64,000 nt of DNA, from positions 1,550,001 through 1,614,000 of the forward strand of contig NZ_LT906434.1 of the NCBI RefSeq assembly GCF_900187305.1. Reading direction: 5' to 3'. Position numbers and translations under genes: made by a program. Positions within the stretch are counted from its first letter, which is position 1. Each line of letters opens with the position of its first letter. This stretch comes from Neisseria zoodegmatis (GTDB taxonomy: Bacteria > Pseudomonadota > Gammaproteobacteria > Burkholderiales > Neisseriaceae). The notes below the pieces were generated by a model, which saw only the letters and a list, made by a program, of their open reading frames with translations, made no database searches and had not been told where the DNA came from. Shown here one piece after another: positions 9,748 to 63,632 of the stretch.

Positions 9748-9791
9748 TTCAGTTTCCTTTTGATTATAAGTATTTGTTTCATGTTGTTATG

Positions 9792-9834
9792 AGGCCGTCT
9801 GAATGAAGTTATGCTTTCTTTTTTCAGACGGCCT
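9792..9834. terminator. Inverted DUS pair upstream of the YeiH-like gene
   Basis: AGGCCGTCTGAA and TTCAGACGGCCT, 19 bases apart. It lies between the divergent YeiH-like and nucleotidase genes, so a terminator role is doubtful; it may simply be an uptake signal. Confidence 0.4.
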
Positions 9835-9883
9835 TCAGCGCTTCTTATTACTAGAGTTTTCACTCATTATTTGAGGAAAGGAT

Positions 9884-9913
9884 TTGCTAAATAATGTAAA
9901 CTGTTTCTATAGT
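9884..9913 (+). promoter_or_regulatory. Candidate promoter of the periplasmic nucleotidase gene
   Basis: TTGCTA (9884-9889) and TATAGT (9908-9913) are 18 bp apart and leave a leader of about 95 nt before ATG 10014. Confidence 0.4.
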
Positions 9914-10013
9914 AATATAAAATCTAAGTTCGCGGCTGTGTCATTGCGCGTCGTTTTGATTGTATTGTAAATCGGATTAGTCCCTATCACCTTAAAACGA
10001 AGGAAGTGCCGTC

Positions 10014-14266: not shown

Positions 14267-14872
14267 ATGGCCGTCGGTTTTGATTTATGGGTATTGGCTG
14301 TTTACATTACCGTATTTATTGTTGCCGCTTTTAAGGCGGGTGAATTTCAATGGCTTTGGGCAAGTGTTTTGCTGTGGTTGGGTTTCAGCGTGATCGGCGC
14401 TCAACTGCTCCCGGGTATATTGGGCATTACTTATCTGGCGCCTTTGTATATTCCGCATTTTTACATCGCTTTGGCGAGCCTGTTTTTTTTCATCAACCAC
14501 TGGAAAAAGCTGCCTGAAAAAGGTTGGTGGCAGGCGCAGGAAACCAACGGCTTTATCAGTTTGTTTGCCGTGAGCGGAATGCTGATGACCGCGGTGTTTT
14601 TGTTGTTGGCATTTTTGGTGTATCTCCGTTTTCCAACCGGCATCACGCCTTATGTGATGCCCGCCCTGCTGCAAATGTATGCGCTCAAACCTGCGTATTG
14701 GTTTGTTGCCCAAGCGTTGATTATGTTGATTTTCTATGTACACCGCAGTTTGATTTCAAAGGAGCCGGTTACGCGGTTTAGCGGCAAGCAGTTGCAGGCC
14801 GGTGTTTTGATGGCTTTTTTATTTCAGACGGCCTATGTATTCAATGAATTGCTGAATATCCGTTTCGGTTAG
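14267..14872 (+). CDS. Polytopic membrane protein of unknown function, 201 aa
   Basis: About six hydrophobic segments with short loops (for example LWVLAVYITVFIVAAFKAG, FYIALASLFFFINHW, MLMTAVFLLLAFLVYLRF). I do not recognise the family. The ATG at 14267 starts one base after the DUF484 stop, so it is the third gene of a dapF operon. A DUS near 14823 encodes FQTA in the last transmembrane segment. The protein ends ELLNIRFG. Confidence 0.75.
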   Translation: MAVGFDLWVLAVYITVFIVAAFKAGEFQWLWASVLLWLGFSVIGAQLLPGILGITYLAPLYIPHFYIALASLFFFINHWKKLPEKGWWQAQETNGFISLFAVSGMLMTAVFLLLAFLVYLRFPTGITPYVMPALLQMYALKPAYWFVAQALIMLIFYVHRSLISKEPVTRFSGKQLQAGVLMAFLFQTAYVFNELLNIRFG

Positions 14873-14988: not shown

Positions 14989-15921
14989 ATGAATATTGCA
15001 CGCAACATCACTGATTTAATCGGCAATACCCCGCTGGTAGAGCTGAACCGCCTCACAGAAGGCCTGCCCGGCCGCGTGGTTGCTAAACTAGAATTTTTCA
15101 ACCCCGGCAGCAGCGTTAAAGACCGCATTGCCGCTTCCATGCTGGACGCTGCGGAAAAAGCAGGCAAAATCAATCAAAACACCACCATCATCGAGGCCAC
15201 CAGCGGCAATACCGGTATCGGCTTGGCGATGGTTTGTGCCGCCCGCGGTTACAAATTGGTGATTACCATGCCGGAAAGCATGAGTAAAGAGCGTCGGATG
15301 TTGCTGCGTGCGTTTGGTGCGGAGTTGATTCTTACCCCCGCAGCGGAAGGTATGGGCGGCGCGATTGCCAAAGCTAAATCGCTGGTTGACGAAAATCCCG
15401 ACACTTACTTCATGCCACGTCAGTTTGATAATGAAGCGAATCCCCAAGTTCACCGCGAAACCACCGCAGAAGAAATTTGGCGCGATACCGACGGCCAAGT
15501 CGATATTTTTGTGGCCGGCGTAGGCACCGGCGGCACGGTAACGGGTGTGGGCGAAGTTTTGAAAGCCCGCAAACCCGAAGTGCAGGTAGTTGCGGTAGAG
15601 CCTGAAGCCTCTCCGGTTCTCAGCGGCGGCGAAAAAGGCCCCCACCCTATTCAAGGTATCGGTGCAGGCTTTGTGCCCAGCATTTTAAATACTCAGGTTT
15701 ACGACAGCATTATTAAAGCTTCTAACGAAGACGCTTTTACCACTGCGCGCGCTATGGCCGAGAAAGAAGGCATTTTGGTGGGCATTTCTTCTGGTGCGGC
15801 TGTTGCGGCTGCTTTGGAATTGGCCAAAAAACCTGAAAACGCAGGCAAGCTGATTGTGGTGCTGATTCCTTCTTACGGCGAGCGTTACCTTTCTACTCCA
15901 TTGTTTGCTGATTTGGCTTAA
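14989..15921 (+). CDS. cysK: Cysteine synthase A (O-acetylserine sulfhydrylase)
   Basis: PLP enzyme that joins sulfide and O-acetylserine to make cysteine. 310 aa. The PLP lysine is Lys44 in PGSSVKDR. The substrate loop TSGNTG, the phosphate loop GVGTGGT and the SSGAAVAAA segment are intact. ATG 14989 has AGGAG upstream. The gene is monocistronic, with its own candidate promoter and a strong terminator. Confidence 0.96.
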
Positions 15922-15942
15922 GGTCAATCTTGCAAACATGTT

Positions 15943-15970
15943 AAAGGCCGTCTGAAAACGGCCTTTTTTT
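15943..15970 (+). terminator. Terminator of cysK built from a DUS
   Basis: AAAGGCCGT-CTGAAA-ACGGCCTTT followed by a run of T. The loop and left arm contain one DUS; the right arm is only a partial complement. Confidence 0.85.
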
Positions 15971-16017
15971 ATATCTGTTTGAAATTTATATCTATACGTG
16001 TTGCGGCTTGTGTATGT

Positions 16018-16500
16018 TTAGAGATACTTTCTCATCAATTCGCATCGCACCGCCACTTCCCGGCTTAACGGCAAAACCGCTTCGCCCAGCGATTCGTATC
16101 CGTTGAGCTTATAAAATGCCACCGAATTTAACGACGCATAGAGTTTGATGAAACTCAAGCCCGCGTCGATGGCCAATTCTTCCGCCCGCTGCAACAAAGC
16201 CGTACCCAAGCCGTGATTGTGTACGAAGGGGTGAACATACAGGGCATCCAGCTGCGCTTCTTTGAAATCAAGCTGGAAAAAACCTTGAATATGGCCACGG
16301 TATTCCACCACCCATAAGGCTTTATTCGGATCGGCAATGGTATCCAGATAACCGGCAGGGCTGATCAGCTTGCTCCACACTTCCAATATTTTATTGTCGT
16401 AGCTGCGGGTGCAGGTGTATTGCACCGAATAGCGGTGGGCATTGTAAATGTGTTCGCAATCTTGGGCGGTGGCGGGGCGGAGTACGGTAATCAGGCTCAT
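16018..16500 (-). CDS. GNAT family N-acetyltransferase
   Basis: 160 aa with the GNAT fold: an N-terminal strand (VLRPATAQDCEHIYNAH), beta-4 (AQLDALYVHP) and the acetyl-CoA loop HNHGLGTALLQRAEELA, ending with NSVAFYKLNGYESLG, as in RimI/ElaA-like enzymes. The acceptor substrate cannot be told. ATG 16500. It is convergent with cysK and is followed on the other side by recR. Inverted DUS copies lie just upstream (16514-16551). Confidence 0.85.
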   Translation of the reverse strand: MSLITVLRPATAQDCEHIYNAHRYSVQYTCTRSYDNKILEVWSKLISPAGYLDTIADPNKALWVVEYRGHIQGFFQLDFKEAQLDALYVHPFVHNHGLGTALLQRAEELAIDAGLSFIKLYASLNSVAFYKLNGYESLGEAVLPLSREVAVRCELMRKYL

Positions 16501-16691
16501 CGTCGTCTCTTGGTTTTCAGACGGCCTGTATGAGGATAGAGGCCGTCTGAAAAAAGAAAGAAAAAAGGGAAAATTTCATGCGGAAAATACGCGTTTTTTT
16601 GCCGGCTGTGAAGTTATTTATACCAAGCGTAACTTTTTCTCTATAAACGGATATTTTTTCAATTCAGACGGCATCTTCGGCTCGTGCCGCA

Positions 16692-17297
16692 TCATTCTTT
16701 GAGCAAACGCCGTTCATAAACCGCCTGCGCCAAAGTGCCGGCATCTATGTATTCAAGCTCGCCGCCCAACGGAATGCCGCGCGCCAAACGGCTGACCTTA
16801 TAAGAAAGGTTTTTAAACAGTTCCGACAGCACATAAGCCGTGGCATCACCTTCTGCGGTGAAATTGGTAGCAATGATGATTTCTTCCACTTCGCTGTTTT
16901 GCAGCCGCTCGACCAGTTTGTCTAAAGCGATATGGCTCAAATCCATGCCCTGCGCCGGATTAACCTGCCCCATCAGCACAAAATACAAGCCGTCGTGGCA
17001 GTTGGCCGCTTCCATGCCCGACACATCGGCAGGCATGTGTACAATCATCAGGCGGCGTGGGTCGCGTTCGGGGTCGGCGCAGATGTCGCACAACTCACCT
17101 TCGCAAAACGTATTGCAGCGCGCGCAATGATGCACCTGCTTCAACGCGTGTTGTAGCGCATCTGCCAATTCCTGCGCACCGTCGCGGCTGTGCTGCAATA
17201 ATTGGTAAGCCATGCGCTGTGCAGATTTGGGGCCGACATTGGGCAGAATTTTCAGCGCGTTGATTAATCGGGTAAAAGCATCGGGATTTTTAGGCAT
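16692..17297 (-). CDS. recR: Recombination mediator RecR
   Basis: RecFOR-pathway protein that loads RecA on gapped DNA. 201 aa with the helix-hairpin-helix (ILPNVGPKSAQRMAY, about 17-31), the zinc-binding cysteines Cys58, Cys61, Cys70 and Cys73, and the Toprim region (MIVHMPADVSGMEA; IIIATNFTAEGDATA). ATG 17297. It lies downstream of glnB on the same strand, separated by a hairpin. A DUS directly abuts the start. Confidence 0.95.
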   Translation of the reverse strand: MPKNPDAFTRLINALKILPNVGPKSAQRMAYQLLQHSRDGAQELADALQHALKQVHHCARCNTFCEGELCDICADPERDPRRLMIVHMPADVSGMEAANCHDGLYFVLMGQVNPAQGMDLSHIALDKLVERLQNSEVEEIIIATNFTAEGDATAYVLSELFKNLSYKVSRLARGIPLGGELEYIDAGTLAQAVYERRLLKE

Positions 17298-17355
17298 TTT
17301 TCAGACGGCCTGTGGGATAGGGGCAAACAGCTCGGATTATATAGCACTTTAACTT

Positions 17356-17380
17356 AAAGGCCGTCTGAAAAACGGCCTTT
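17356..17380 (-). terminator. DUS-derived hairpin after glnB
   Basis: AAAGGCCGT and ACGGCCTTT arms enclose a DUS core. It lies between the glnB stop and recR. Confidence 0.65.
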
Positions 17381-17412
17381 GAAGTTTGATTCAACGGTTT
17401 TCAAGCAATCGC

Positions 17413-17811
<399 letters not shown>

Positions 17812-18009
17812 TCAATGGGCTGTTCAGGCCGTCTGAAAAGGAAAATCCGGCCAATCAAACGGGTTTTTAATACAAGCCAGCGAACCGCAGACAGTACGGC
17901 TAATACGGCTGGCACATTAAAAATTAATTCGGTTGATTGCAGCCGAGCAGACCATACTGATTTTGTGTACAATTACGCCCATTTCCAACCGCATGTGTGA
18001 GCTAGATTC

Positions 18010-21000
18010 ATGTCCGTCGTATTGCCCTTGCGCGGCGTTGCCGCCCTGTCTGATTTCCGCATCGAAAAACTCCTGCAAAAAGCTGTGGCCTCCGGCCTGC
18101 CGAAAGCAGAATTAAGCAGCGAATTTTGGTATTTTGTGAGCAGCGAATCCGCGCTGAACAACGAAACCGCAACGAAATTGCAGGCTTTGTTGGAAGCTGA
18201 ACGTGTCGAAAAAACACCCGAAGCCGAAAACAGCCTGCATTTGTTTTTAATCACCCCGCGCATCGGCACCATTTCGCCGTGGGCATCGAAAGCCACCGAC
18301 ATCGCACACAACTGCGGCTTGGGCGAAATCGAACGCATCGAGCGCGGCATGGCGGTGTGGGTGAAAGGCGAACTGAACGCCGGGCAAAAACAGCAATGGG
18401 CTGCCCTCTTGCACGACCGCATGACCGAAAGCGTGCTGCTTGATTTTCAGACGGCCTCGCAGCTCTTCGCCCACCCCGAAGCGCAAACTTTTGCCACCGT
18501 TGATGTTTTAGGCAAAGGCAAAGACGCTTTGATACAAGCCAACAGCGAACTGGGTTTGGCATTGTCGCCCGACGAAATCGACTACCTGCTGGAAAACTAC
18601 CAAGCCTTGCAGCGCAACCCAAGCGATGTCGAACTGATGATGTTCGCACAGGCCAACTCCGAACACTGCCGCCACAAAATCTTCAATGCCGACTTCATTT
18701 TAAACGGCGAAAAACAGCCCAAATCGCTGTTCGGCATGATTCGCGACACCCACAACGCCCACCCCGAAGGCACGATTGTGGCCTATAAAGACAACGCCTC
18801 CATCATCGAAGGCGCGAAAATCGAGCGTTTCTACCCGCGTGCGGACGAGCAGCAAGGCTACCGCTTCAGCGAAGAAGAAACGCATATTTTGATGAAAGTG
18901 GAAACCCACAACCATCCCACCGCCATCGCGCCTTTTGCAGGCGCGGCCACCGGTGCGGGCGGCGAAATCCGCGACGAAGGTGCCACCGGGCGCGGCGCGC
19001 GCCCGAAAGCAGGTTTAACCGGCTTTACCGTATCCAACCTCAATATTCCCGGCTTCAAACAACCGTGGGAAGGCGGCTACGGCAAGCCCGACCACATCAG
19101 CAGCCCGCTCGACATCATGATCGAAGGCCCCGTTGGCGGCGCGGCGTTCAACAACGAATTCGGCCGCCCCAACCTGTTGGGCTATTTCCGAACCTTTGAA
19201 GAAGAATTTGAAGGGCAAATGCGCGGCTACCACAAACCCATCATGATTGCCGGAGGCTTGGGCAACATTCAGGCAGGCCAAACCCATAAAGACCAAATCC
19301 CCGAAGGCGCGCTTTTGGTGCAACTCGGCGGCCCCGGCATGCTCATCGGTTTGGGTGGCGGTGCGGCTTCGTCTATGGATACCGGCAGCAACGCCGCCGA
19401 TTTGGACTTCAACTCGGTACAGCGCGGCAACCCCGAAATCGAACGCCGCGCACAGGAAGTGATCGACCGCTGCTGGCAGTTGGGCGCAGGCAATCCGATT
19501 ATCGCCATTCACGATGTCGGTGCAGGCGGCTTGTCGAACGCCTTTCCCGAATTGGTCAACGATGCAGGCCGCGGCGCAATATTCAAACTGCGCGACGTGC
19601 CGTTGGAAGAACACGGCCTAAGCCCGATGCAGATTTGGTGTAACGAAGCGCAAGAGCGTTATGTGTTGTCGATTTTGCCCGAACACTTAGACTTGTTCCG
19701 CGAAATCTGCGAGCGCGAACGCTGCCCGTTTGCCGTGGTCGGCACCGCCACCGACGACGGCCATCTGCAAGTGCGCGACGATTTGTACGGCAACAACCCC
19801 GTCGATTTGCCGCTGAACGTTTTGCTCGGCAAACCGCCCAAAACCACCCGCAGCGACAACACCGTAAGGCCGTCTGAAAAACCGTTTTCAGGTAGCCATA
19901 TCGACTTGAAAGAAGCCGCCTACCGCGTGTTGCGCCTGCCCACCGTGGCCGCCAAAAACTTCCTGATTACCATCGGCGACCGCAGCGTCGGCGGCATGAC
20001 CCACCGCGACCAAATGGTAGGGCGTTACCAAACCCCCGTAGCCGATGCCGCCGTCACCATGATGGGCTTCAACACCTACAAAGGCGAAACCATGGCCATG
20101 GGCGAAAAACCGACCGTCGCCCTCTTTGATGCGCCCGCTTCCGGCCGCATGGCCATCGGCGAAACGCTGACCAACCTCGCCGGCGTGAATATCGGCGACA
20201 TCGGCAACATCAAACTTTCCGCCAACTGGATGGCCGCCTGCGGCAACACCGGTGAAGACGAAAAACTCTACCGCACCGTCGAAGCCGTGTCGCAAGCCTG
20301 TCAGGAACTGGGCATCAGCATTCCCGTGGGAAAAGATTCGCTGTCGATGAAAACCGTGTGGAAAGACAACGGCGCGCAAAAATCGGTAACTTCGCCGTTG
20401 AGCCTGATTATTACCGGCTTCGCACCGGTGCAGGACGTGCGCAAAACCGTTACGCCCAAATTGAAAAACACGGCAGACAGCATATTGCTGACCGTGGACT
20501 TGGGCTTCGGCAAAGCACGCATGGGCGGCTCGGCCTTAAGCCAAGTGTATAACGATATGGCAGGCGAAGCGCCGGATATCGAAGCAGGCCGTCTGAAAGC
20601 GTTTTACCAAGTGATTCAGCAGCTTGTGGCCGAAGATAAACTTTTGGCTTATCATGACCGCAGCGACGGCGGCCTGTTTGCTACGTTGGCGGAAATGGCA
20701 TTTGCGGCACGTTGCGGCTTGGATGTACGGCTACCTGAAAACGCAGACGCACTCTCCGTACTGTTTAACGAGGAATTAGGCGCAGTGCTGCAAGTGCGCC
20801 GAGCCGATGTCGAAGCGATACAGCAAGCCTTTTCCGCCGCAGATTTGCTGGATGCGGTGTCCGAAATCGCCGTACCGAACAATACCGACATTCTGCACAT
20901 CTCCAAAGATGGCGAAGTGATTTTCGACGAAAGCCGTCTGAAATTACAGCAAACCTGGCAAGAAACCAGCCATCAAATCCAACGCCTGCGCGACAACCCC

Positions 21001-52856: not shown

Positions 52857-54239
52857 TCAGCACTTGGCTTCCGCACCTTTACGGGCGTAATACCACCAGT
52901 TCAACACCAAACAAATAGCATAGAAAATGATGAAGCCGATTAAAGCCGCATTCACACCGCCGGTGAGGTCGATAGACGTGCCGTAGCTTTTCGGAATAAA
53001 GAAACCGCCGTAAGCCGCAAACGCCGCCGTAAAGCCGATGACCGCCGCGCCTTCTTTGGTGGCATCGAGACGGGCTTGCTCCGCATCGACTTTGCCTTCG
53101 TCGGCAAACTTTTGATGCATGTTGAGGAAAATTACCGGCACCTGCATAAAGGTTGAACCGTTGCCGATGCCCGTCAGCGCAAACAAGGCCAAGAAGCAGG
53201 CGAAGAAGCCCCAGAAATTACCGCCCTGCCCGTTGCTCGGCAGGAAAGCGATCACACCGAACACGGCGATAATCATGCCTGCGAATACGATTTGGGTAAC
53301 GGCCGCGCCGCTTTTGATTTTATCGGAAATCCAACCGCCGAACGGACGCACCAGCGCACCCACCAACGGCCCTAAAAAGGCGTATTTCACCGGGTCGATG
53401 CCGGTAAACTGGCTTTTAATCAGCAGCGGGAAACCTGCCGCGAAGCCGATAAACGAGCCGAACGTGCCCAAATAGAGAATGCACATAATCCAGTTGTGCT
53501 TGCGGCTGAAAATGATGGCTTGGTCTTTAAAGCTGGCTTTCGCGCTGGCCAAGTCGTTCATGCCGAACCATGCCGCCAAAGTGGAAAGAATGATAAACGG
53601 CACCCAAATAAAGCCCGCATTTTGCAGCCACATTTGTTTGGTAACGTCGCCTTTGACCCAAGTTTGCGGTTCGCCGCCGAACGCACCGAAAATACCGGCG
53701 GTAATCACCAGCGGCACGACAAATTGAACGGTGGAAACGCCCAAATTACCCAAGCCCGCGTTCAAGCCCAAAGCCGTGCCTTTTTCCGCTTTGGGATAGA
53801 AAAAGCTGATATTGGCCATGCTCGACGAGAAATTGCCGCCGCCGAAGCCGCACAGCAAGGCCAACACCATCATGGTGATGTAGTCGGTATCGGGGTTTTG
53901 CACGGCGAAGCCCAAGCCGATGGCGGGCAGCAGCAGGCTGGCTGTCGATAAAGCCGTCCATTTGCGTCCGCCGAATATCGGCACCATAAACGAGTAAAAA
54001 ATACGCAGGGTCGCGCCGGAAAGCGCAGGCAGCGCCGCCAGCCAGAAAAGCTGGTTTTCGCTGTATTTAAAGCCGATATTGGGCAGGTTAACCACCGCCA
54101 CGCTCCACACCTGCCAAATGGCAAAGGCCAGCAGAAGGGCGGGAATGGAAATCCACAGGTTGCGGGTGGCGATTTTTTTACCGGTTTTCTGCCAGAATGC
54201 TTTGTCTTCCGGCTGCCAGTGTTCGATCAAATGCGACAT
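52857..54239 (-). CDS. Nitrate/nitrite transporter, NarK2-like (MFS)
   Basis: 460 aa with twelve predicted helices and the NNP-family signatures: GFGGGNFSSSMANISFFYP (first nitrate signature) and GIGNGSTFMQVPVIF (second). NarK2-type proteins exchange nitrate for nitrite. ATG 54239. It follows the narK1-like gene by about 80 bp and ends before a DUS cluster. Its neighbours are the Moco genes. Confidence 0.92.
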   Translation of the reverse strand: MSHLIEHWQPEDKAFWQKTGKKIATRNLWISIPALLLAFAIWQVWSVAVVNLPNIGFKYSENQLFWLAALPALSGATLRIFYSFMVPIFGGRKWTALSTASLLLPAIGLGFAVQNPDTDYITMMVLALLCGFGGGNFSSSMANISFFYPKAEKGTALGLNAGLGNLGVSTVQFVVPLVITAGIFGAFGGEPQTWVKGDVTKQMWLQNAGFIWVPFIILSTLAAWFGMNDLASAKASFKDQAIIFSRKHNWIMCILYLGTFGSFIGFAAGFPLLIKSQFTGIDPVKYAFLGPLVGALVRPFGGWISDKIKSGAAVTQIVFAGMIIAVFGVIAFLPSNGQGGNFWGFFACFLALFALTGIGNGSTFMQVPVIFLNMHQKFADEGKVDAEQARLDATKEGAAVIGFTAAFAAYGGFFIPKSYGTSIDLTGGVNAALIGFIIFYAICLVLNWWYYARKGAEAKC

Positions 54240-54317
54240 AACGATACTCCGTAAAAAGAAACCTGTTGAGGCCGTCTAAAAAAAACCGCTGCGCTTTCAG
54301 ACGGCCTGATATAAGGA

Positions 54318-55574
54318 TTACGACTGTTTCTGATTCAAGGCTTTCAATTCTTGGTCGCGCTTGGCTTTAAACGAGAAGTGCATCCAAATCAGCGATACGC
54401 ACACCGTGCCGTAAAGCAGCATGAACGATGTCGAACGTATGCCCGTCCAGTCTTCCAGCGCGCCGAACATAATCGGCAGCAAAAATCCGCCCATACCGCC
54501 GGCCAAGCCCACGATGCCCGATACCGCGCCGATGTTGTCGGGATAGTCGTCGGCCACGAATTTGAATACCGATGCTTTGCCCACAGCCGTTGCCACGCCC
54601 ACGGTAAACATCAGCACGGTAAACAGGGTAACGCCCAAGCCGATATGCATGCTCAAAGGGCCGTTTTTGGTTTGGATAACCAAGTCGGTTTGCGGGTAAG
54701 AAAGCAGGAAGAAGCACACCCAACACACCCACATCACCGCCCACGTTACCTTATACGCACCGAATTTGTCGGAAAGATAACCGCCGAACGCACGCAGCAC
54801 GCCGCCGGGCAGCGAGAAACACGCCGCCAGAAACGCCGCCGTTTTCAGCTCCATGCCGTATTCGCCCACATAATATTTGGTCATCCACAAGGCCAGCGCC
54901 ACATAGCCGCCGAACACCACCGAATAATATTGGCTGTAACGCAGCACGCCGGGGTCTTTCAGCAAAGCCAACTGTTCGCGCAACGTTACGCTCGACGACA
55001 CCAAATGTTTCGGATCGTGGTAGCTGGTAAACCAGAAAATCACCGCCATTGCCAGCATAATCGCCGAATATACGGTCGGCACAATCTGCCAAGTGCCGTA
55101 AGTGGTGATCAACCAAGCGGCCAAAAATTTGTTAACGGCAGAACCCGCGTTACCCGCGCCGAACACCCCCATCGCCATCCCTTGCTGATGTTTGGGAAAC
55201 CAGCGCGCCACATAAGGCGTACCCACCGAGAAAGAGCCGCCCGCCAAGCCCATCAACAGGCCGATAATCAGGAAATGCCAGTATTGGTTGGCATAGCTCA
55301 TCAAGAAAATCGCCGGTACAGAAATCGCCATCAGTGCAAACAGCACGACACGTCCGCCGTATTTATCGGTAAGAATGCCCAGCGGCACCCGAATCAGCGA
55401 GCCGGACAACACCGGCAGCGCGATCAAGATGCCGTATTGGGTTTGGTTGAAGCCCATTTCTTCCTGCACCTTGATGCCGACCACCGCCAGCATCATCCAC
55501 ACCATAAAGCACACCGTAAACGAAAGCGTGCTCGACACCAACACCGAATAGCGTTTGTAAGTTTCCGAGGCCAT
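54318..55574 (-). CDS. Nitrate transporter, NarK1-like (MFS)
   Basis: 418 aa with twelve helices: CFMVWMMLAVVGIKVQEEMG, the NNP signature GLAGGSFSVGTPYVARWFP and GLAGGMGGFLLPIMFG. It belongs to the shorter NarK1 subgroup, which takes up nitrate with protons; the next gene is of the NarK2 subgroup. ATG 55574 follows AAGGGAGGGG; the frame upstream to 55658 is not coding. The DUS-type hairpin at about 54270-54306 has one degenerate arm. Confidence 0.92.
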   Translation of the reverse strand: MASETYKRYSVLVSSTLSFTVCFMVWMMLAVVGIKVQEEMGFNQTQYGILIALPVLSGSLIRVPLGILTDKYGGRVVLFALMAISVPAIFLMSYANQYWHFLIIGLLMGLAGGSFSVGTPYVARWFPKHQQGMAMGVFGAGNAGSAVNKFLAAWLITTYGTWQIVPTVYSAIMLAMAVIFWFTSYHDPKHLVSSSVTLREQLALLKDPGVLRYSQYYSVVFGGYVALALWMTKYYVGEYGMELKTAAFLAACFSLPGGVLRAFGGYLSDKFGAYKVTWAVMWVCWVCFFLLSYPQTDLVIQTKNGPLSMHIGLGVTLFTVLMFTVGVATAVGKASVFKFVADDYPDNIGAVSGIVGLAGGMGGFLLPIMFGALEDWTGIRSTSFMLLYGTVCVSLIWMHFSFKAKRDQELKALNQKQS

Positions 55575-55756
55575 CTTGCCGCCCCTCCCTTTCTTAGTTG
55601 ATAACAAAATGAAATTTCTGCTTAATGCTACGTTACTCTCTTGGAATCTGCGGCGCATTCACTTGAAGCATCGAAGACACAAGGCATTGGCATAGCCCCG
55701 TATCCACCGAATGGGCATCGGAGTAGTTATTTAGTCGTATCTCTATTTGCCGCAAA
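55575..55756 (-). promoter_or_regulatory. narK upstream region with a nar-type motif
   Basis: The 21-bp element at 55719-55739 (core GTAGTTATTTAG on the plus strand) matches 15 of 21 positions with the one at 62299-62319 upstream of narH. It contains half-sites resembling the NarL heptamer TACYYMT. It lies about 155 bp before ATG 55574. Confidence 0.45.
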
Positions 55757-56325: not shown

Positions 56326-56991
56326 TTAATCGTTAGGTTGCGGCACATTATGCTGCACCGCATACACCGCCGCCTGCACGCGGCTGGTCAGCTCCAGCTT
56401 GCGCAAAATGCTCTGCACATGCACTTTGATGGTGGACTCGGCCAAATCCAGCTTGCGGGCAATGATTTTGTTGCTGTGTCCGGCAGCGAGGTGGCCGAGA
56501 ATTTCCATCTCGCGCGGCGTGAGCGTATCCAAAGCCCCTGCGGCGGCGGGCGCGGCGGGGCGTATCAGCGACTGCACCAGCCGCGCGGTCATTTCGGGCG
56601 AAAACACGTTATCGCCGGCAGCGGCCTTCTTGATGGCATCCACCAAAAACTCGGCGTTGATGTTTTTCAGCAGAAAACCGCGCGCGCCCAAGCGCATACA
56701 TTCGGTTAAATCTTCGCTGTCTTCGGAGACGGTCAGCATCACCACCGTTTGGTCGGGGCGGCTGCTGAGTATCTGTGCTAAGGCTTCGCGGCCGTTCATT
56801 ACCGGCATGTCCAAATCCAAAAGCACCACGTCGGGATTAAGCTGCTCCGCCAGTTTCACGCCGCTCAAGCCGTCGGCCGCTTCGCCGATCACTTCGCAAT
56901 CTTCCTGCCGCGCCAGCAAAGCCTTGATGCCGCTGCGGAACAAAGTATGGTCGTCCACCAAAATGATGCTGATTTTTTCGTTTGTATCCAT
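56326..56991 (-). CDS. narL: Nitrate/nitrite response regulator NarL
   Basis: 221 aa. Receiver domain with acceptor Asp59 in VVLLDLDMPVMNG and Lys in GFLLKN, then a LuxR-type HTH (LTPREMEILGHLAAGHSNKI ... TIKVHVQSILRKL). NarL or NarP role is inferred from pairing with narX and position among nar genes. ATG 56991 is 2 nt past the narX stop; a TTG at 56997 is an alternative. Confidence 0.92.
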   Translation of the reverse strand: MDTNEKISIILVDDHTLFRSGIKALLARQEDCEVIGEAADGLSGVKLAEQLNPDVVLLDLDMPVMNGREALAQILSSRPDQTVVMLTVSEDSEDLTECMRLGARGFLLKNINAEFLVDAIKKAAAGDNVFSPEMTARLVQSLIRPAAPAAAGALDTLTPREMEILGHLAAGHSNKIIARKLDLAESTIKVHVQSILRKLELTSRVQAAVYAVQHNVPQPND

Positions 56992-56993
56992 AA

Positions 56994-58892
56994 TCAAATC
57001 AAAATTCTTTCTTCTTGCGGCAGTGTCAAACGCACCTGCGTATATTGCCCGGGTTGTGAATCCAAATCCAAACGCGCATGAATACGCAATGCCCGTTCGC
57101 GCATAATGTTCAGGCCTACATGGCCGCCCGACAGGTTTTCCAATGAAGCGGGGTCGAAGCCGTTGCCGTCGTCGGTAATCGTCATCACGAAATCGCGCTC
57201 GTTATCCAGCGTTACCTTTACCGATTTGGCTTGGGCGTGTTTGCGGATATTGGAAAGGCTTTCCTGCAAAATAAAAATAAACTGCAACTGCTGTTCGCTG
57301 CTCAAATTGGGGCCGTCGCCGTGCCACACCACTTCGATATCGGTTTGGGTTTGCTGGCGGAAACGCGCCGCCAGCGTTTGCACGGCTTCGGCAAATTCTT
57401 TTTTGCTGATTTTGGTGCGGAAATTCAGCAGCAATTCGCGCACGTCTTCATAGCATTCCTGCACGCCGTCTTTGATGAATTGCAGGTTTTCCGACATCTG
57501 GTTTTGGTTGCCCGCCGCCATCGCGCTTTCCAACATCTGCACCTGCAAATTCAGAAAAGTCAGCGTTTGGGCGATGCTGTCGTGCAACCCTTGCGCCATC
57601 AGATTGCGCTCTTGCAATACCGCCAGCTGCCTGCTTTCGTCGGCCAAGCGGATATTGGTCAGCACCAGCCCCAACAGGTTGCATAAAGAATCGAGCAGAT
57701 GGGTGGTGTTGGTGTTAAAGGCATATTCTTCGTCGAAATACAAAGTCATGATGCCCAAGTCTTTGTGGCTGTGGCGGATTTTGAACACCTGAAGGTAATG
57801 GAAACCCGATTTTTCGCAGCCCGTAGTGTGCATAGCCACCGACGTTTCCGTGCGCCCGTCGAAATGAATCGGCTGCCAGCCGCTCTGCTGCACGGTTTTG
57901 CCGCAAAAGCAGTCTTCCAGACGCTGGCAGGCTTCAGCGTTTTGCAAAGTGTCGGGCAAGCCTTGATGCGCCACCAAATCCATACGATGCCGTCTGAAAT
58001 CAAGCAGGCGGATGCTGCCGGCGCGGGCGGGAATCAGGCGCATGATTTTTTCTAAAAACATCGTGCCGGCTTCGGCCGCGGTTTGTGTTTGGTTCAGGAA
58101 GCGCGAAAACGAATACAGGGTTTGCAGCGTATAGTTTTTATCGGCCAAATCACGGGTTTTTTCAGCGACTTCGTGTTCCAGATTGGCATAAAGCTGCTGC
58201 AAGCGCTTACTCATCTGGTTGAAGCCTTTATCAAGCTGGGCAAACTCGGCCAGCTCGTTAATCGGCACCTGCGTACCCAGCTTGCCGTCGTGAATCCTTT
58301 CCACGCCGTTTTGCAGCTCTTCCATCGGGCGGATAATCCACAAATACAGCAGCACCACCATCACGCCCGCACCGATCAGCACCATCGCCATCAGCCCGCT
58401 TTGAAACAGGCGCAGCCAATAAGTGTGGCGGGAATTGACGATTTCCACGGCGGAAACCAAATCGTCAATCGACGCCACAAACTGGTTCAAATATTTTTCT
58501 TCCACGCCCGTGCGGTTGTGTGCGGCACTTTGCAACTGCAGCTTGATGTGCTGCCATTCCGCTTTCAAACTTTCCATGTGCTGCCGCACTTCGGGCGTAT
58601 CGGGCAACGACAGCGGCCGCACGGGGTCGCCGCGTTCCAACTGCTGCAAAGTCGTATCGAATTGGGCGATTTTCCGGTCGATGTGCTCAACATTGTGCTG
58701 TTCGCGCAACATCAAGCCCAAGCGGTATGCCTGCATACGCAAACTGCCGGCATCGTTAATCGCCGCCGCGCTGCCTTCCAGCCGCCACGACAGCAGCAAG
58801 GTAAAAATAATCGATGCCAACGCCGCCGACACCCACACCACAGTGAGAAATTTCAAGCGTGCCGACAAGCTGTTGAGAAAAGTGAAACGCAA
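56994..58892 (-). CDS. narX: Nitrate/nitrite sensor histidine kinase NarX
   Basis: 632 aa. A transmembrane helix (FLTVVWVSAALASIIFTLLL) is followed by a periplasmic domain with the P-box nitrate motif NDAGSLRMQAYRLGLM, a second helix (LMAVLIGAGVMVVLLYLWII region), HAMP, a GAF-like domain with Cys residues, the HPK7 phospho-acceptor in QGLHDSIAQTLTFLNLQVQM, and the ATPase lid (DDGNGFD, GLNIMRERA). The start is TTG 58892: an in-frame stop lies 12 bases before it and GGAG precedes it; the next ATG would delete the first helix. Confidence 0.93.
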   Translation of the reverse strand: MRFTFLNSLSARLKFLTVVWVSAALASIIFTLLLSWRLEGSAAAINDAGSLRMQAYRLGLMLREQHNVEHIDRKIAQFDTTLQQLERGDPVRPLSLPDTPEVRQHMESLKAEWQHIKLQLQSAAHNRTGVEEKYLNQFVASIDDLVSAVEIVNSRHTYWLRLFQSGLMAMVLIGAGVMVVLLYLWIIRPMEELQNGVERIHDGKLGTQVPINELAEFAQLDKGFNQMSKRLQQLYANLEHEVAEKTRDLADKNYTLQTLYSFSRFLNQTQTAAEAGTMFLEKIMRLIPARAGSIRLLDFRRHRMDLVAHQGLPDTLQNAEACQRLEDCFCGKTVQQSGWQPIHFDGRTETSVAMHTTGCEKSGFHYLQVFKIRHSHKDLGIMTLYFDEEYAFNTNTTHLLDSLCNLLGLVLTNIRLADESRQLAVLQERNLMAQGLHDSIAQTLTFLNLQVQMLESAMAAGNQNQMSENLQFIKDGVQECYEDVRELLLNFRTKISKKEFAEAVQTLAARFRQQTQTDIEVVWHGDGPNLSSEQQLQFIFILQESLSNIRKHAQAKSVKVTLDNERDFVMTITDDGNGFDPASLENLSGGHVGLNIMRERALRIHARLDLDSQPGQYTQVRLTLPQEERILI

Positions 58893-59177: not shown

Positions 59178-59861
59178 TTAACGGCGGCGAACCAGCTGCC
59201 ATGCGCGGCCGAGATAGGCGACGCTGGCGAAGCCACTCCACACGTGTACCAAGCGGGTGAACGGGAAAATCACAAACAAACCCATACCCATTACCATATG
59301 CAGTTTGAACAGGAAGTTCACGTCTTCGATATGGCTGGCGGCTTCACCGCGGAAGGTAACGATGTGCTGCGCCCAAGTCATCAGTTTCACCATTTCGTGG
59401 CCGTCGGTATGGCCCATGCTCACGAAGATGGTCAGCAAGCCCAAGCCTAAGGTGATGATGAGCCAAATCAATACCAATTTGTCGCGCCATGTGGTGTTGG
59501 CGGCCAAGCGGTCGCATTTCAGACGGCGTTGCAGCAGGATAATCAAACCGATCATCGCCATCACGCCGAAGATGCCGCCCATTACCATCGCGAAAATCTG
59601 CTTGGCACTGTGGGAAACGCCCAACGCGTCCCAAAACCATAAAGGCGTGAGCAGGCCGAACAGATGCCCGAAAAACACGGCCAAAATGCCGACGTGAAAC
59701 AGAATGTTGCCCAAGCGCAATTGGCCTTCGTAAAGGATTTGGCTGGATTCGCTTTTCCACGAATATTGCTCGCGGTCGAAGCGCACGAGGCTGCCGAAGA
59801 AGAAAATCGCGAGGGCAATGTAGGGGAAGATGCCGAAGAAGAATTGGTGCAGGGTATTCAT
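59178..59861 (-). CDS. narI: Respiratory nitrate reductase, gamma subunit
   Basis: Membrane cytochrome b that passes quinol electrons to NarH. 227 aa with five helices and the haem-ligating histidines expected (for example LFHVGILAVFFGHLFG, KLHMVMGMGLFVIFPFTRLVH). ATG 59861 begins 2 nt past narJ. It ends the narHJI run. Confidence 0.95.
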   Translation of the reverse strand: MNTLHQFFFGIFPYIALAIFFFGSLVRFDREQYSWKSESSQILYEGQLRLGNILFHVGILAVFFGHLFGLLTPLWFWDALGVSHSAKQIFAMVMGGIFGVMAMIGLIILLQRRLKCDRLAANTTWRDKLVLIWLIITLGLGLLTIFVSMGHTDGHEMVKLMTWAQHIVTFRGEAASHIEDVNFLFKLHMVMGMGLFVIFPFTRLVHVWSGFASVAYLGRAWQLVRRR

Positions 59862-59863
59862 GT

Positions 59864-60532
59864 TTATGCTCCTGTTTGGGCCGTCTGAAAAGCGGCTTTA
59901 GGATAAAACTGTACGGTTTCGACGCTCGGTTTCAAGAGCGGCTCGGTGCCGGAAATATCGGGGCCGAACGTTTCCATCGCTTCGTCCATATCGCGCACGG
60001 GCGGCTCGATGAGGGGCTGCGGTGCTACCGGGCTGAGGGCTGTGATGCCTTGCAGCAGCACGGCATAGGGCGAACCGTTTTTCTCGAGTTTGCCGCCGAT
60101 GTGGGCGATCACATGCACGGCATCGCCCAACAGTTTTTGCGCGTGTTCGGGCGGCACTTGGCTCAGGTATTCCAGCAATACGGGCAGGTAATCGGGCAGC
60201 TCATCGTTGCCCAGCTCGAAACCGTGGTTACGGTATTCTTGCAGCAAGTCCACCATGGCGCTGCCGCGGTCGCGGTCTTCGCCGTACACATGCTCGAAAA
60301 TGTAGAGCGCGTGGTTGCGGTTGCGGTCGAAAGTGGCGACGTAGTTTTCCTGCAATTCGCGCAGGCTGTGGCTGTTTAAATAGTCTAAAAAGCTGTTCAG
60401 ACGGCCTGCTTGTGTTTGCAGCTCGGGCCATTCTTGTAAGGCCGTCTGAAATTCAGACAGGGCTCCGATCAGCTCGGCTTCGGGGTAGCACAGCAGAGCG
60501 GAAAACCATTTGTAAACAGGATTCGCGCTCAT
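59864..60532 (-). CDS. narJ: Nitrate reductase molybdenum cofactor assembly chaperone NarJ
   Basis: Chaperone that binds the NarG N-terminus during Moco insertion. 222 aa with YKWFSALLCYPEAELIGAL, the conserved ENYVATFDRNRNHALYIFEHVYGEDRDRG stretch and DELPDYLPVLLEYLS. ATG 60532 overlaps the narH stop by one base. Its presence is notable because no NarG client is encoded at the locus. Confidence 0.95.
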   Translation of the reverse strand: MSANPVYKWFSALLCYPEAELIGALSEFQTALQEWPELQTQAGRLNSFLDYLNSHSLRELQENYVATFDRNRNHALYIFEHVYGEDRDRGSAMVDLLQEYRNHGFELGNDELPDYLPVLLEYLSQVPPEHAQKLLGDAVHVIAHIGGKLEKNGSPYAVLLQGITALSPVAPQPLIEPPVRDMDEAMETFGPDISGTEPLLKPSVETVQFYPKAAFQTAQTGA

Positions 60533-62091
60533 CAGCGTACTCCTTCTTCACGGTTTTTCTCGGCATCTTTGCGCAGGCCGTGGAAGATAATCGGCGCGCC
60601 TTTGCGTTTGCCGAACAAGCTCTCTTCGCTGCTGCCGCCAGAGCAGCCGTTGCCGAAGGTAAAGCCGCAGCCGGCTTTGTCGCCGAAGCTGTTTTCCACC
60701 ATTTCTTTGTGCGAAGTCGGAATCACAAAGCGGTCTTCATAATTGGCAATCGCCATGATTTGATACATGTCTTCCACCATCTCGGGCGTGAGGCCGGTGC
60801 CTTCCAGCGTTTGCGCCAGCGTTTCGCCGTGAACCACCTGCCCGCGTTTGAAGCGGCGCATGGCAATCATGCGTTCCAGCGCGAATTTGATCGGCTCGAC
60901 TTTGCCCGCAGTGAGCAGGTTGGCCAGATATTTCAACGGGATGCGCATTTCGTCCACGCTCGGGATGATGCCGTTTTCGCCCACCAAACCGTTTTCGATG
61001 GCAGATTGAATCGGCGAGAGCGGCGGGATATACCAAACCATCGGCAAGGTACGGTATTCGGGGTGCAGCGGGAACGCCACTTTCCATTCCATCGCCATTT
61101 TGTATACAGGCGATTGTTTCGCCGCATCAATCCAGCTTTGGCTGATGCCTTGTTTCAAGGCTTCGCGTTGCACTTCAGGATCGTGCGGATTCAAGAACAC
61201 CCCCAGTTGTTGCTCGTACAAATCTTGCGGATTTTCCACCGAAGCGGCTTGTTCGATTTTGTCCGCGTCGTACAGCAGCACGCCCAAATAACGGATGCGG
61301 CCCACGCAGGTTTCGGAACACACGGTCGGCTGGCCGCCTTCGATACGCGGATAGCAGAACGTACATTTTTCGGCCTTGCCTGAAGTCCAGTTGTAGTAGA
61401 TTTTTTTGTAAGGGCAGCCGGATACGCACATGCGCCAGCCGCGGCATTTGTCTTGGTCTATCAATACGATGCCGTCGTCTTCGCGCTTGTAAATACTGCC
61501 GGACGGGCAGGAAGCCACACAGGTCGGGTTCAAACAATGCTCGCACAGGCGCGGCAGATACATCATGAAGGTTTGCTCGAATGCGGCGTGCATGTCTTTC
61601 TGAATGCCTTCAAACAGCACGTCTTTCGCCCGCTTCTCAAACTCGCCCGCCAAATCGTCTTCCCAGTTCGGGCCCCATTCCACCTTGTCCATTTTTTTGC
61701 CGGTGAGCACGGAAATCGGACGCGCGGTCGGCGGCGTTTTCATTTTCGGCGCGTTTTGCAGATGTTCGTAATCGTAGGTGAACGGCTCGTAGTAGTCGTC
61801 GATTTTCGGCATATTCGGGTTGGCAAAAATATTCGCCAAAATCTTCAACTTACCGCCCTGCTTCGGCACCAGTTTGCCATCGGGCTTGCGCACCCAGCCG
61901 CCGTTCCATTTGTTTTGGTCTTCCCAGTTTTTCGGAAAACCGATGCCGGGCTTGGTTTCCACGTTGTTGAACCAAGCATATTCCACGCCGTCGCGCGAAG
62001 TCCACACGTTTTTACAGGTAACGGAGCAGGTGTGGCAGCCGATACATTTGTCTAAGTTCAGAACCATGCCGACTTGTGCTCTGATTTTCAT
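60532..62091 (-). CDS. narH: Respiratory nitrate reductase, beta (iron-sulfur) subunit
   Basis: Electron-transfer subunit with one [3Fe-4S] and three [4Fe-4S] clusters. 519 aa, complete. The cysteine groups are visible: CIGCHTCSVTCKNVW (about 16-30), CEHCLNPTCVASCPSG, CRGWRMCVSGCPYKK (with Trp in the [3Fe-4S] position) and CTFCYPRIEGGQPTVCSETC. ATG 62091 with AGGAA upstream. In all nar operons I know, narG immediately precedes narH; here a DUS pair and non-coding DNA precede it. Confidence 0.96.
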   Translation of the reverse strand: MKIRAQVGMVLNLDKCIGCHTCSVTCKNVWTSRDGVEYAWFNNVETKPGIGFPKNWEDQNKWNGGWVRKPDGKLVPKQGGKLKILANIFANPNMPKIDDYYEPFTYDYEHLQNAPKMKTPPTARPISVLTGKKMDKVEWGPNWEDDLAGEFEKRAKDVLFEGIQKDMHAAFEQTFMMYLPRLCEHCLNPTCVASCPSGSIYKREDDGIVLIDQDKCRGWRMCVSGCPYKKIYYNWTSGKAEKCTFCYPRIEGGQPTVCSETCVGRIRYLGVLLYDADKIEQAASVENPQDLYEQQLGVFLNPHDPEVQREALKQGISQSWIDAAKQSPVYKMAMEWKVAFPLHPEYRTLPMVWYIPPLSPIQSAIENGLVGENGIIPSVDEMRIPLKYLANLLTAGKVEPIKFALERMIAMRRFKRGQVVHGETLAQTLEGTGLTPEMVEDMYQIMAIANYEDRFVIPTSHKEMVENSFGDKAGCGFTFGNGCSGGSSEESLFGKRKGAPIIFHGLRKDAEKNREEGVR

Positions 62092-62585
62092 GGTAGTGTT
62101 CCTTTTGGTTTGGTTTTCAGACGGCCTCTCCGGTAGTGGCAGGCCGTCTGAAAAACGGCTTCGTCAAGTGGTTGCTATCGCTGTATTAAAACTTTTTCAC
62201 AGATAGAAGCTTAGTAGATGGCGTGCAAGAAAAACATGCGTCTAAAGAGCAGGCGCAGGCAGCAAAGGAATGTAGGCCGGCTAGCTGAAAAGGGGAACGG
62301 AGGTAGTTATTTGGGAGTATGGCGGGCAGTTGGAATACCTATTTGAATGCACGGGCAGCACCCGATCCGAGCGAATAAAACCAATCGTTTCGGCATACGA
62401 TTGAACTTGAGTATTCACCCGCCTGCCTGAAATACGCCGCAAAAATATTCAGACGGCCTCAACCGCTACGGCAGGCTATATACCCATCAGGCCGTCTGAA
62501 AGCCCGATGAAAACTTTTTCGGAAAGCAGCGATTTATGCGATAATCTGCGCCGAAATCCTTACCATCATTCCACACGGAAACATC
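62092..62585. promoter_or_regulatory. narH-recA intergenic region: nar promoter elements but no narG
   Basis: 494 bp between divergent narH and recA. Near narH lies a DUS pair (about 62117-62154). A nar-type element is at 62299-62319, related to those upstream of narK and narX and partly to that of moeA. I find no stretch that translates to NarG (about 1,200 residues expected), not even a C-terminal remnant in the frames I read. A DUS lies at about 62450-62461 and another at about 62489-62500. Confidence 0.7.
62537..62545 (+). promoter_or_regulatory. Candidate recA extended -10 promoter
   Basis: TGCGATAAT gives an extended -10 box (TGN plus GATAAT) about 40 bp before ATG 62586. The -35 region is weak. 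No LexA-type SOS box is apparent, as expected in Neisseria. Confidence 0.45.
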
Positions 62586-63632
62586 ATGTCAGACGAAAAA
62601 AGCAAAGCACTAGCCGCCGCGCTCGCGCAAATCGAAAAAAACTTCGGCAAAGGCTCCATCATGAAGATGGACGGCAGCCATAAAGACGAAAATTTAGAAG
62701 TCATCTCCACCGGCTCGCTCGGTTTGGACTTGGCGCTCGGCGTGGGCGGCCTGCCCCGCGGCCGTATCGTCGAAATCTTCGGTCCCGAATCATCCGGTAA
62801 AACCACCCTGTGTTTGGAAGCCATCGCCCAATGTCAGAAAAACGGCGGTACCTGCGCCTTTATCGATGCCGAAAACGCATTCGACCCTATCTACGCCCGC
62901 AAACTCGGCGTGAAAGTGGAAGAACTGCTGGTTTCCCAACCCGACACCGGCGAGCAGGCGCTTGAAATCTGCGACATGCTGGTACGCTCCGGCGGCGTGG
63001 ATATGGTCGTAGTCGATTCGGTCGCCGCGCTCGTGCCCAAAGCCGAAATCGAAGGCGAAATGGGCGACAGCCACGTCGGCCTGCAAGCCCGCCTGATGAG
63101 CCAAGCCCTGCGCAAACTCACCGGCCACATCAAAAAAACCAACACCTTAGTCGTATTCATCAACCAAATCCGCATGAAAATCGGCGTGATGTTCGGCAGC
63201 CCCGAAACCACCACCGGCGGTAACGCGCTGAAATTCTACGCCTCCGTGCGCCTCGACATCCGCCGCACTGGTTCCATCAAAAAAGGCGACGACGTTTTGG
63301 GTAACGAAACCAAAGTCAAAGTCATCAAAAACAAAGTCGCCCCACCCTTCCGCCAAGCTGAATTCGATATCCTTTACGGCGAGGGCATCAGCTGGGAAGG
63401 CGAACTGGTCGATTTGGGCGTGAAATACGATATCGTTGAAAAATCAGGCGCATGGTACAGCTACAACGGTGCCAAAATCGGCCAAGGCAAAGACAACGTG
63501 CGCGTATGGCTGAAAGAAAACCCCGAAGTCGCCAACGAAATCGACGCCAAAATCCGCGCCAAAGTCGGTGTGAATGTGCAAATCACCGAAGGCACGCTGG
63601 ACGATACCGACGGCGAACAGCCTGAAGAATAA
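62586..63632 (+). CDS. recA: Recombinase A
   Basis: DNA strand exchange, repair and transformation. 348 aa with Walker A GPESSGKT (66-73), catalytic Glu96 in [10 protein letters not shown], Walker [11 protein letters not shown]1/L2 loops ([40 protein letters not shown]) and an acidic C-terminal tail ending [10 protein letters not shown]. Position 97 is Asn where E. coli has His (and I recall His in other neisseriae). ATG 62586. Confidence 0.97.

Follow-up and report, generated by a model that had tools for sequence, protein, structure and literature searches.

In the genome of Neisseria zoodegmatis studied here (NCBI RefSeq GCF_900187305.1; G000 below), the genes for membrane-bound nitrate reductase lie in two places. 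The genes narH, narJ, and narI are found in a 64,000-nucleotide stretch of contig NZ_LT906434.1 (C1:1550001-1614000, hereafter the window), and narG lies beyond the window, 13.27 kb upstream of narH on that chromosome and in the same orientation; the whole genome is a single contig of 2,552,522 bases. We estimate a probability of about 85% that a complete and ordinary NarGHI enzyme, together with NarJ, is produced from these loci as two co-regulated units, narG and narHJI. The four genes are intact, narH and narG are preceded by a common module, among the loci examined this module occurs before narH only at split ones, and the split recurs in relatives. Comparison of the promoters suggests that the module is an active promoter, bound by NarL and derived from a narG promoter.

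The genes that define this arrangement are as follows (window coordinates unless marked C1; ORF, open reading frame).

60532..62091, minus strand: narH, nitrate reductase beta (Fe-S) subunit, 519 aa (ORF; NCBIfam TIGR01660, 930.4 bits, cut-off 524.05)
59864..60532, minus strand: narJ, molybdenum-cofactor assembly chaperone, 222 aa (ORF; NCBIfam TIGR00684, 123.5 bits, cut-off 59.35)
59178..59861, minus strand: narI, cytochrome b (gamma) subunit, 227 aa (ORF; NCBIfam TIGR00351, 251.2 bits, cut-off 105.55)
C1:1625362-1629039 (15362-19039 of locus L003), 11.4-15.0 kb past the window end, minus strand: narG, 1225 aa (TIGR01580)
62586..63632, plus strand: recA, the first gene of the 13.27 kb interval between narH and narG (named from sequence)

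NarH, NarJ, and NarI each scored above the NCBIfam equivalog cut-off, and their ORFs are complete and in the usual order, in agreement with an earlier note on this DNA. The same note had observed that no narG precedes narH in the window and had proposed that the gene is encoded elsewhere, was lost, or is missing from a collapsed assembly. The genome bears out the first proposal and speaks against loss, as the narG on the same single contig is full length (2101.6 bits against TIGR01580, cut-off 1084.15, residues 2-1221 covered). A whole-genome search for the molybdopterin domain (PF00384) gave two places, narG and C1:245292-246302. In addition, an H-x3-C-x3-C motif and a WYCDLPPASPQ stretch, which we take to be NarG motifs, were seen by eye in the protein.

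The canonical narGHJI layout, with narG directly before narH in one unit, is therefore not found here. The intervening nine genes, whose names were read from sequence rather than from family matches, are recA, a radical-SAM-like gene, a 261-aa gene, tex, a MoxR-type ATPase, a VWA-type gene, mltD, a methyltransferase, and a lemA-like gene, and eight of the nine lie on the strand opposite to narG and narH. A terminator-like hairpin with a 20-pair stem and a T tail was found 3' of narG, which is weak evidence alone (one found versus 0.6 expected in shuffles), and similar hairpins were seen by eye 3' of narG in most other split genomes. Because this hairpin and then mostly opposite-strand genes follow narG, narH is very probably independent of the narG transcript.

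narH starts at 62091 and recA at 62586, which leaves a gap of 494 bp. Two ORFs of 80 aa or more extend into this gap, one at 61820-62206, antisense to narH, and one at 62534-62824, antisense to recA. The earlier description of the gap as only non-coding DNA was right in that it contains no coding gene, but it was incomplete, as a conserved promoter-like module is present.

62304..62319, minus strand: distal 7-2-7 NarL-type site TACTCCCAAATAACTA, the window's single match to TACYYMTNNAKRRNTA when one mismatch is allowed
62231..62247, minus strand: proximal element CTTTAGACGCATGTTTT, which begins 72 bp downstream of where the distal site starts and is centred near -41.5 if the -10 hexamer is as given below
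62208..62213, minus strand: probable -10 hexamer TAAGCT, spaced from the proximal element exactly as TATATT is at narG
62204..62321, minus strand: whole conserved narH promoter module (narH-promoter profile E 1.3e-24, as a training member)
62114..62154, no strand assigned: inverted pair of DNA uptake sequences (DUS), TTTTCAGACGGCCT / AGGCCGTCTGAAAA, in the narH leader (from sequence)

The design of the module, with a 7-2-7 NarL-type site, 72 bp, a CTTT....GCATRTTTT element, and TAAGCT at -10 spacing, was also found before narG. The NarL consensus is a 7-2-7 heptamer pair, and the candidate sites at narG and at narH in G000 each agree with it at 12/14 positions. The single match to TACYYMTNNAKRRNTA in the window is not significant alone, as 0.65 were expected from shuffles. 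Furthermore, the narG-promoter profile matched the narH module over 62229-62321 (E 7.6e-6).

The module was then compared across 14 split-type narH loci (the 12 split genomes of the genus, G049 from outside it, and a remnant in G013) and across 17 of 30 joined genomes, in which narH follows narG directly (9/9 in the genus and 8/21 outside). All 14 split-type loci carry the module, with 13-16/16 positions of the proximal element, 10-13/14 positions of the distal site, and a spacing of 71-72 bp; their leaders hold a CTTT....GCATATTTT-type proximal element followed by TAAGCT, TAAACT, or TACACT at fixed spacing. In contrast, it is present in 0/17 of the joined narH leaders examined (best 10/16). 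A proximal element of at least 13/16 was found in 19/30 narG promoters, and in 9/30 the best-matching distal site has a spacing of 70-72 bp; those of G011, G012, and G029 fit 70 bp if read further upstream. The 14 narH modules alone were made into a profile, which in a search of 0.9 Mb of DNA matched 13/30 narG upstream regions, with E-values of 3.8e-10 to 1.3e-3; apart from narH and narG promoters, no match fell below E 0.05. Reciprocally, the narG profile found 12/14 narH modules at E <=1.7e-3 and the remaining two at 0.047 and 0.052. No match at E <=1 was obtained in a reversed database with either profile. Moreover, a composite pattern searched across the whole G000 genome matched two places, which are exactly the narH and narG promoters, with one match in the backward control; across the genus it matched both genes in 12/12 split genomes, and in the nine joined genomes it matched narH in none and narG in two (G029 and G039).

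Several observations weigh against two co-regulated units with related promoters. A proximal element of at least 13/16 is shared by all 13 split narG promoters but by just 6/17 of the joined ones. Since these promoters themselves supplied the composite pattern, its matching them is partly built in, and its rarity elsewhere in G000 is the independent part; further scattered matches to it were found in several other genomes. In G000 the narG and narH promoters share a modest 43.0% identity, and their alignment score was reached by 10/300 shuffles and by 5/360 control upstream regions. In G007 it was reached by 97/300 shuffles. Nitrate reductase promoters are usually FNR-dependent, and no FNR box (TTGATNNNNATCAA, at most one mismatch) was found in the narG or narH promoter of G000. 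With regard to origin, no intermediate carrying both a full and a half operon was found among 46 genomes of the genus and 37 further genomes of the family, and a single old split would not explain the joined-type spacer of G029, to which we return below.

The shuffles (of 300) reaching the pair score numbered 6 in G002, 0 in G003, 4 in G006, 6 in G011, 17 in G012, 4 in G026, 0 in G028, 17 in G030, 2 in G041, 0 in G045, and 0 in G049, and all 360 control regions were beaten only by the promoter pairs of G003, G045, and G049. These pairwise alignments, which are weak in several genomes, may be confounded by DUS repeats. As the likeness within G000 is modest, the case rests on the whole set of genomes. 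The proximal element alone is uninformative, since at up to three mismatches it occurs at 20 places in the genome versus 18 in the control; narG is the only perfect one and narH has three mismatches. As for FNR, a two-mismatch match overlaps the distal site of narG, the position at about -41.5 is taken by another element, and the match counts are at shuffle level (13 versus 11.6 in L003 and 31 versus 30.5 in the window); L003 has a single perfect match, at 14651-14664, within the coding sequence of the lemA-like gene.

The likeness of the promoters could also be convergent, if narHJI was relocated downstream of sites for these regulators, or gained such sites itself, without a narG promoter being copied. 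This would agree with the narG-narH promoter identity of just 43.0-53.1% in the four genomes compared, and with the weak remaining profile matches, which include narK2 promoters (E about 0.1-0.9), as expected of a common regulon. We nevertheless consider it rather unlikely, because the blocks stand in the same order and spacing and include bases outside the 7-2-7 consensus (CATATTTT), because reciprocal profile matches below E 0.05 connect solely narG and narH promoters, and because a narH-like narG promoter is found in the joined genome G054.

The separation of narG from narHJI is widespread. Any narG match was found in 24/46 genomes of the genus, including fragments in G013 and G032 and a weak, distant match in G018. 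Full-length narG is present in 21, of which 12 are split (G000, G002, G003, G006, G007, G011, G012, G026, G028, G030, G041, and G045) and nine are joined (G004, G008, G016, G022, G029, G035, G039, G043, and G044, with G029 joined up to a contig end 69 residues into narH). Outside the genus, narG was found in 22/37 family genomes, 21 joined and one split (G049). Nine split genomes have narG and narH on a single contig; the distance is 8.8-14.7 kb in five (G000, G002, G007, G011, and G049) and 460-930 kb in four (G003, G006, G041, and G045). In G012, G026, G028, and G030 the two genes lie on different contigs, neither adjoining the other. In G007 and G049, narHJI lies upstream of narG with a narK-moeA-moaA cluster between, and in G011 narG is inverted. 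The spacer between narG and narH is about 54-143 bp in 14/17 joined genomes examined, and about 490-560 bp in G004, G022, and G048, where it contains an extra gene. By eye this gene is cupin-like, runs in the narH direction, and is perhaps a fifth operon member. Separately, a mltD-methyltransferase pair lies near narG in G000 and G003 and beside narH in G045, and may mark an old nar site. In the G013 remnant, narH residues 1 to about 300 run directly into narG residues about 1005 to 1224, and the neighbours (c17 on the left, c9 on the right) are those of the narHJI...narG block in G007, so that the remnant looks like one deletion of the whole nitrate-respiration cluster.

L069 about 9587-10039 (also in L070 and L149), narH direction: cupin-like gene, by eye
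L003 11510-14396, L093 4287-7240, and L090 5463-8513: mltD-methyltransferase pair
L083 about 9400-11074: narH'-narG' remnant of G013

These distributions bear on two simpler explanations. An inversion or translocation might have put the 13 kb recA-lemA block into an intact narGHJI operon, leaving narH to be read from a nearby promoter. The block does consist mostly of housekeeping-like genes, and rearrangement is evidently common, as narHJI and narG occupy several different chromosomal sites among the split genomes. However, narG has a terminator-like hairpin after its stop, and the narH module of about 118 bp is common to 13 other split-type loci at several sites, indicating that the split is older than the G000 junction; we regard this explanation as improbable. 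The possibility that the recA block was inserted once, and recently, in this strain was also considered, and is disfavoured by the module common to other split loci. An assembly artefact, in which narG and narH are truly adjacent, is the least likely of all. Abundant DUS repeats could mislead an assembler, and no support for such an error was found, whereas the assembly is one contig with 100% completeness and 0.04% contamination, the two genes are also apart in 11 other genomes of the genus and in G049, and split narH leaders are unlike joined spacers. The collapsed assembly once proposed is therefore not upheld.

Selection on the genes was assessed from the ratio of non-synonymous to synonymous substitution rates (dN/dS) in ten hand-picked pairs, five of them split and five joined, with the G000 pairs left out for narJ because L003 cuts that gene. 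The ratios were 0.038-0.088 for narG and 0.013-0.056 for narH in split pairs, and 0.024-0.058 and 0-0.057, respectively, in joined pairs, with one narH dS saturated (1.58). In the split genomes both genes look to be under purifying selection (0.013-0.088 over ten comparisons), and the low ratios suggest that the assembled complex functions in nitrate reduction. The earlier note had suggested a split or altered reductase, or a strain on the way to losing it. The gene arrangement is indeed split; given the apparent purifying selection, there is no sign of an altered protein or of loss of the pathway.

A decaying nitrate reductase with narHJI as a relic is accordingly very improbable. It would draw on the 22/46 genomes of the genus without a narG match at E <=0.001, on G013, which keeps only its narH'-narG' remnant, and on narG ratios slightly higher in split than in joined pairs. 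Against this, the split narG genes are still strongly constrained, all four genes are intact in G000, and regulators, transporters, and cofactor genes are present. A relic or decaying enzyme, tried as a candidate, is thus not supported.

The regulators and transporters lie on the same strand beyond narI, in the order NarX/NarQ-type sensor, NarL-type regulator, Mop protein, two NarK-type transporters, moeA, and moaA, the last two named from sequence only. This agrees with the earlier listing of narX, narL, two narK, Mop, and molybdenum-cofactor genes nearby, with the qualification that the NarX and NarL types score below their cut-offs.

56994..58892, minus strand: NarX/NarQ-type nitrate sensor kinase (NF008184 NarQ, 284.8 bits, cut-off 553; NF007896 NarX, 214 bits, cut-off 578; both under the cut-off)
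56326..56997, minus strand: NarL-type response regulator (NF007935 NarL, 232.9 bits, just under the cut-off of 250)
52857-55658: tandem NarK-type transporters, of which only 52857-54239 passes the NarK-family cut-off (TIGR00886)

In the reading with two co-regulated units, narHJI would be transcribed from its own promoter, built like that of narG, with a distal NarL-type 7-2-7 site, 70-72 bp, the CTTT....GCATATTTT-type element, and a -10 hexamer at fixed spacing. Both promoters would be targets of the NarX/NarL-type system whose genes adjoin narI, and nitrate would induce the two halves together. NarG, NarH, and NarI would then assemble in trans with NarJ as usual. All 21 genomes of the genus that have a full-length narG gave a NarX-type match (in G007 as two lower-identity pieces in one frame), and so did 39/46 genomes of the genus overall, many of them without nar genes; the match thus does not track nar, and part of these matches may be NarQ-type sensors. 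In addition, a second Mop-type protein, divergent to narG and 38-51% identical to that of the window, adjoins narG in several joined and split genomes.

L066 13914-14342 (similar in L071, L073, L075, L077, L082, L091, and L096), divergent to narG: second Mop-type protein, 38-51% identity

The histories of narG and narH were compared using trees, with G013 and G029 left out of those for the approximately unbiased (AU) tests, and otherwise G013 left out of narG and G029 out of narH. In an rpoB tree of a quick kind, from which G035 is absent as it has no rpoB match, split and joined genomes interleave with six changes of state. In the AU tests, one clade of all split narH was not rejected (p-AU 0.076). 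One clade of all split narG was rejected (p 2e-141), owing to G007 and G003; without these two, the remaining 11 of 13 split narG form a clade with support 100/99.9, into which the joined G029 falls when included. The narG of G007 is closest to that of joined G022/G048 in 11/12 windows of 300 bases, with the first window closest to G000, and its narH is closest to the split clade. Forcing the G007 narH onto the narG grouping was rejected at p 0.005, and the reverse at p 2e-7, with groups that were chosen after the trees were seen. These conflicting trees indicate that the subunits of one genome or more do not all have the same ancestry. On the favoured reading, the two units have been spread by recombination.

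The promoters give a further hint of origin. The best narG promoter for the narH profile is that of G054 (joined, another genus; E 3.8e-10), which has TAAGCT rather than TATATT at -10 and shares 47.9-55.9% identity with seven narH modules versus 43.1-47.7% with six narG promoters. Grouping of split narH with that of G054, G039, and G035 was neither shown nor rejected (p-AU 0.16). By eye, hairpins like the DUS pair of the narH leader occur in many joined narG-narH spacers, and the 3' part of most split narH leaders (a DUS-type hairpin, then AAGGAACAC) resembles the 3' part of those spacers. The DUS pair is no obvious terminator, as no T-run follows it in the narH direction; recombination at this pair is a possible origin of the leader. 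Together, the promoter and leader likenesses fit a narG promoter fused to narHJI by loss of narG, possibly between hairpins, and a different copy that lost narHJI. We tentatively propose, as one possible course, that the promoter-bearing narHJI arose once, by deletion of narG from a second, transferred narGHJI operon of the G054 kind between its leader and spacer hairpins, while the first operon in turn lost narHJI. The two pieces would then have spread separately between species by transformation and recombination, moved between sites, and been remixed, as in G007.

G029 fits this less readily. Its narG is 96-100% identical per window to that of G011/G012 and its first 207 narH bases are 99.5% identical to both, and yet it has a joined-type spacer without the module; the contig ends inside narH and the assembly holds no further narH. 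The operon of G029 may have been joined again, G029 may be a recent donor, or its assembly may be at fault. As a separate observation, the narG leaders of G011, G012, and G029 (L086, L087, and L084) hold a Correia-element-like repeat, roughly 100 bp long, whose ends are ATAGTGAATTCACT / AGTGAATTCACTAT.

L084 12700-16995: joined narG-narH of G029

In narGHJI of the E. coli type, the four genes form one operon under NarX/NarL control. The same four proteins are encoded here, with NarX/NarQ- and NarL-type regulators and NarK-type transporters alongside, whereas narG lies apart with a terminator-like hairpin after it and narHJI has its own narG-like module. Compared with the joined narGHJI of other Neisseriaceae (G008, G039, G044, and G054), NarG is 86-87% and NarH 93-96% identical; in the joined genomes similar narG promoter elements occur in 6/17 and the narH module in none. 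Split operons are known in other pathways, such as trp (PMC2395257), where an ancestral operon was likewise divided into separate parts. By comparison, the nar parts encode subunits of one membrane enzyme, have a common promoter design, and have different ancestries in at least one genome (G007). The NarGHIJ operon is described as present or absent by species in Neisseria (PMC12054151), and a narG mutant of N. mucosa ATCC 19696 is described as gaining nothing from nitrate without oxygen (PMC12607641). A figure legend of the latter names narG and narHIJ separately, and the word 'operon' is absent from its main text. A literature search, mostly at title and abstract level, found no description of narG split from narHJI; an earlier one is possible.

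The reduction of nitrate by commensal Neisseria of the mouth has medical interest (PMC12054151 and PMC12607641). A gene-neighbourhood pipeline could score species such as this one as negative for nitrate respiration, or their operon as incomplete, although the gene set is whole. Finally, the joined, near-split, far-split, remixed, and lost states found in these genomes form a natural series of how the operon of a tightly assembled enzyme may split with its co-regulation kept.

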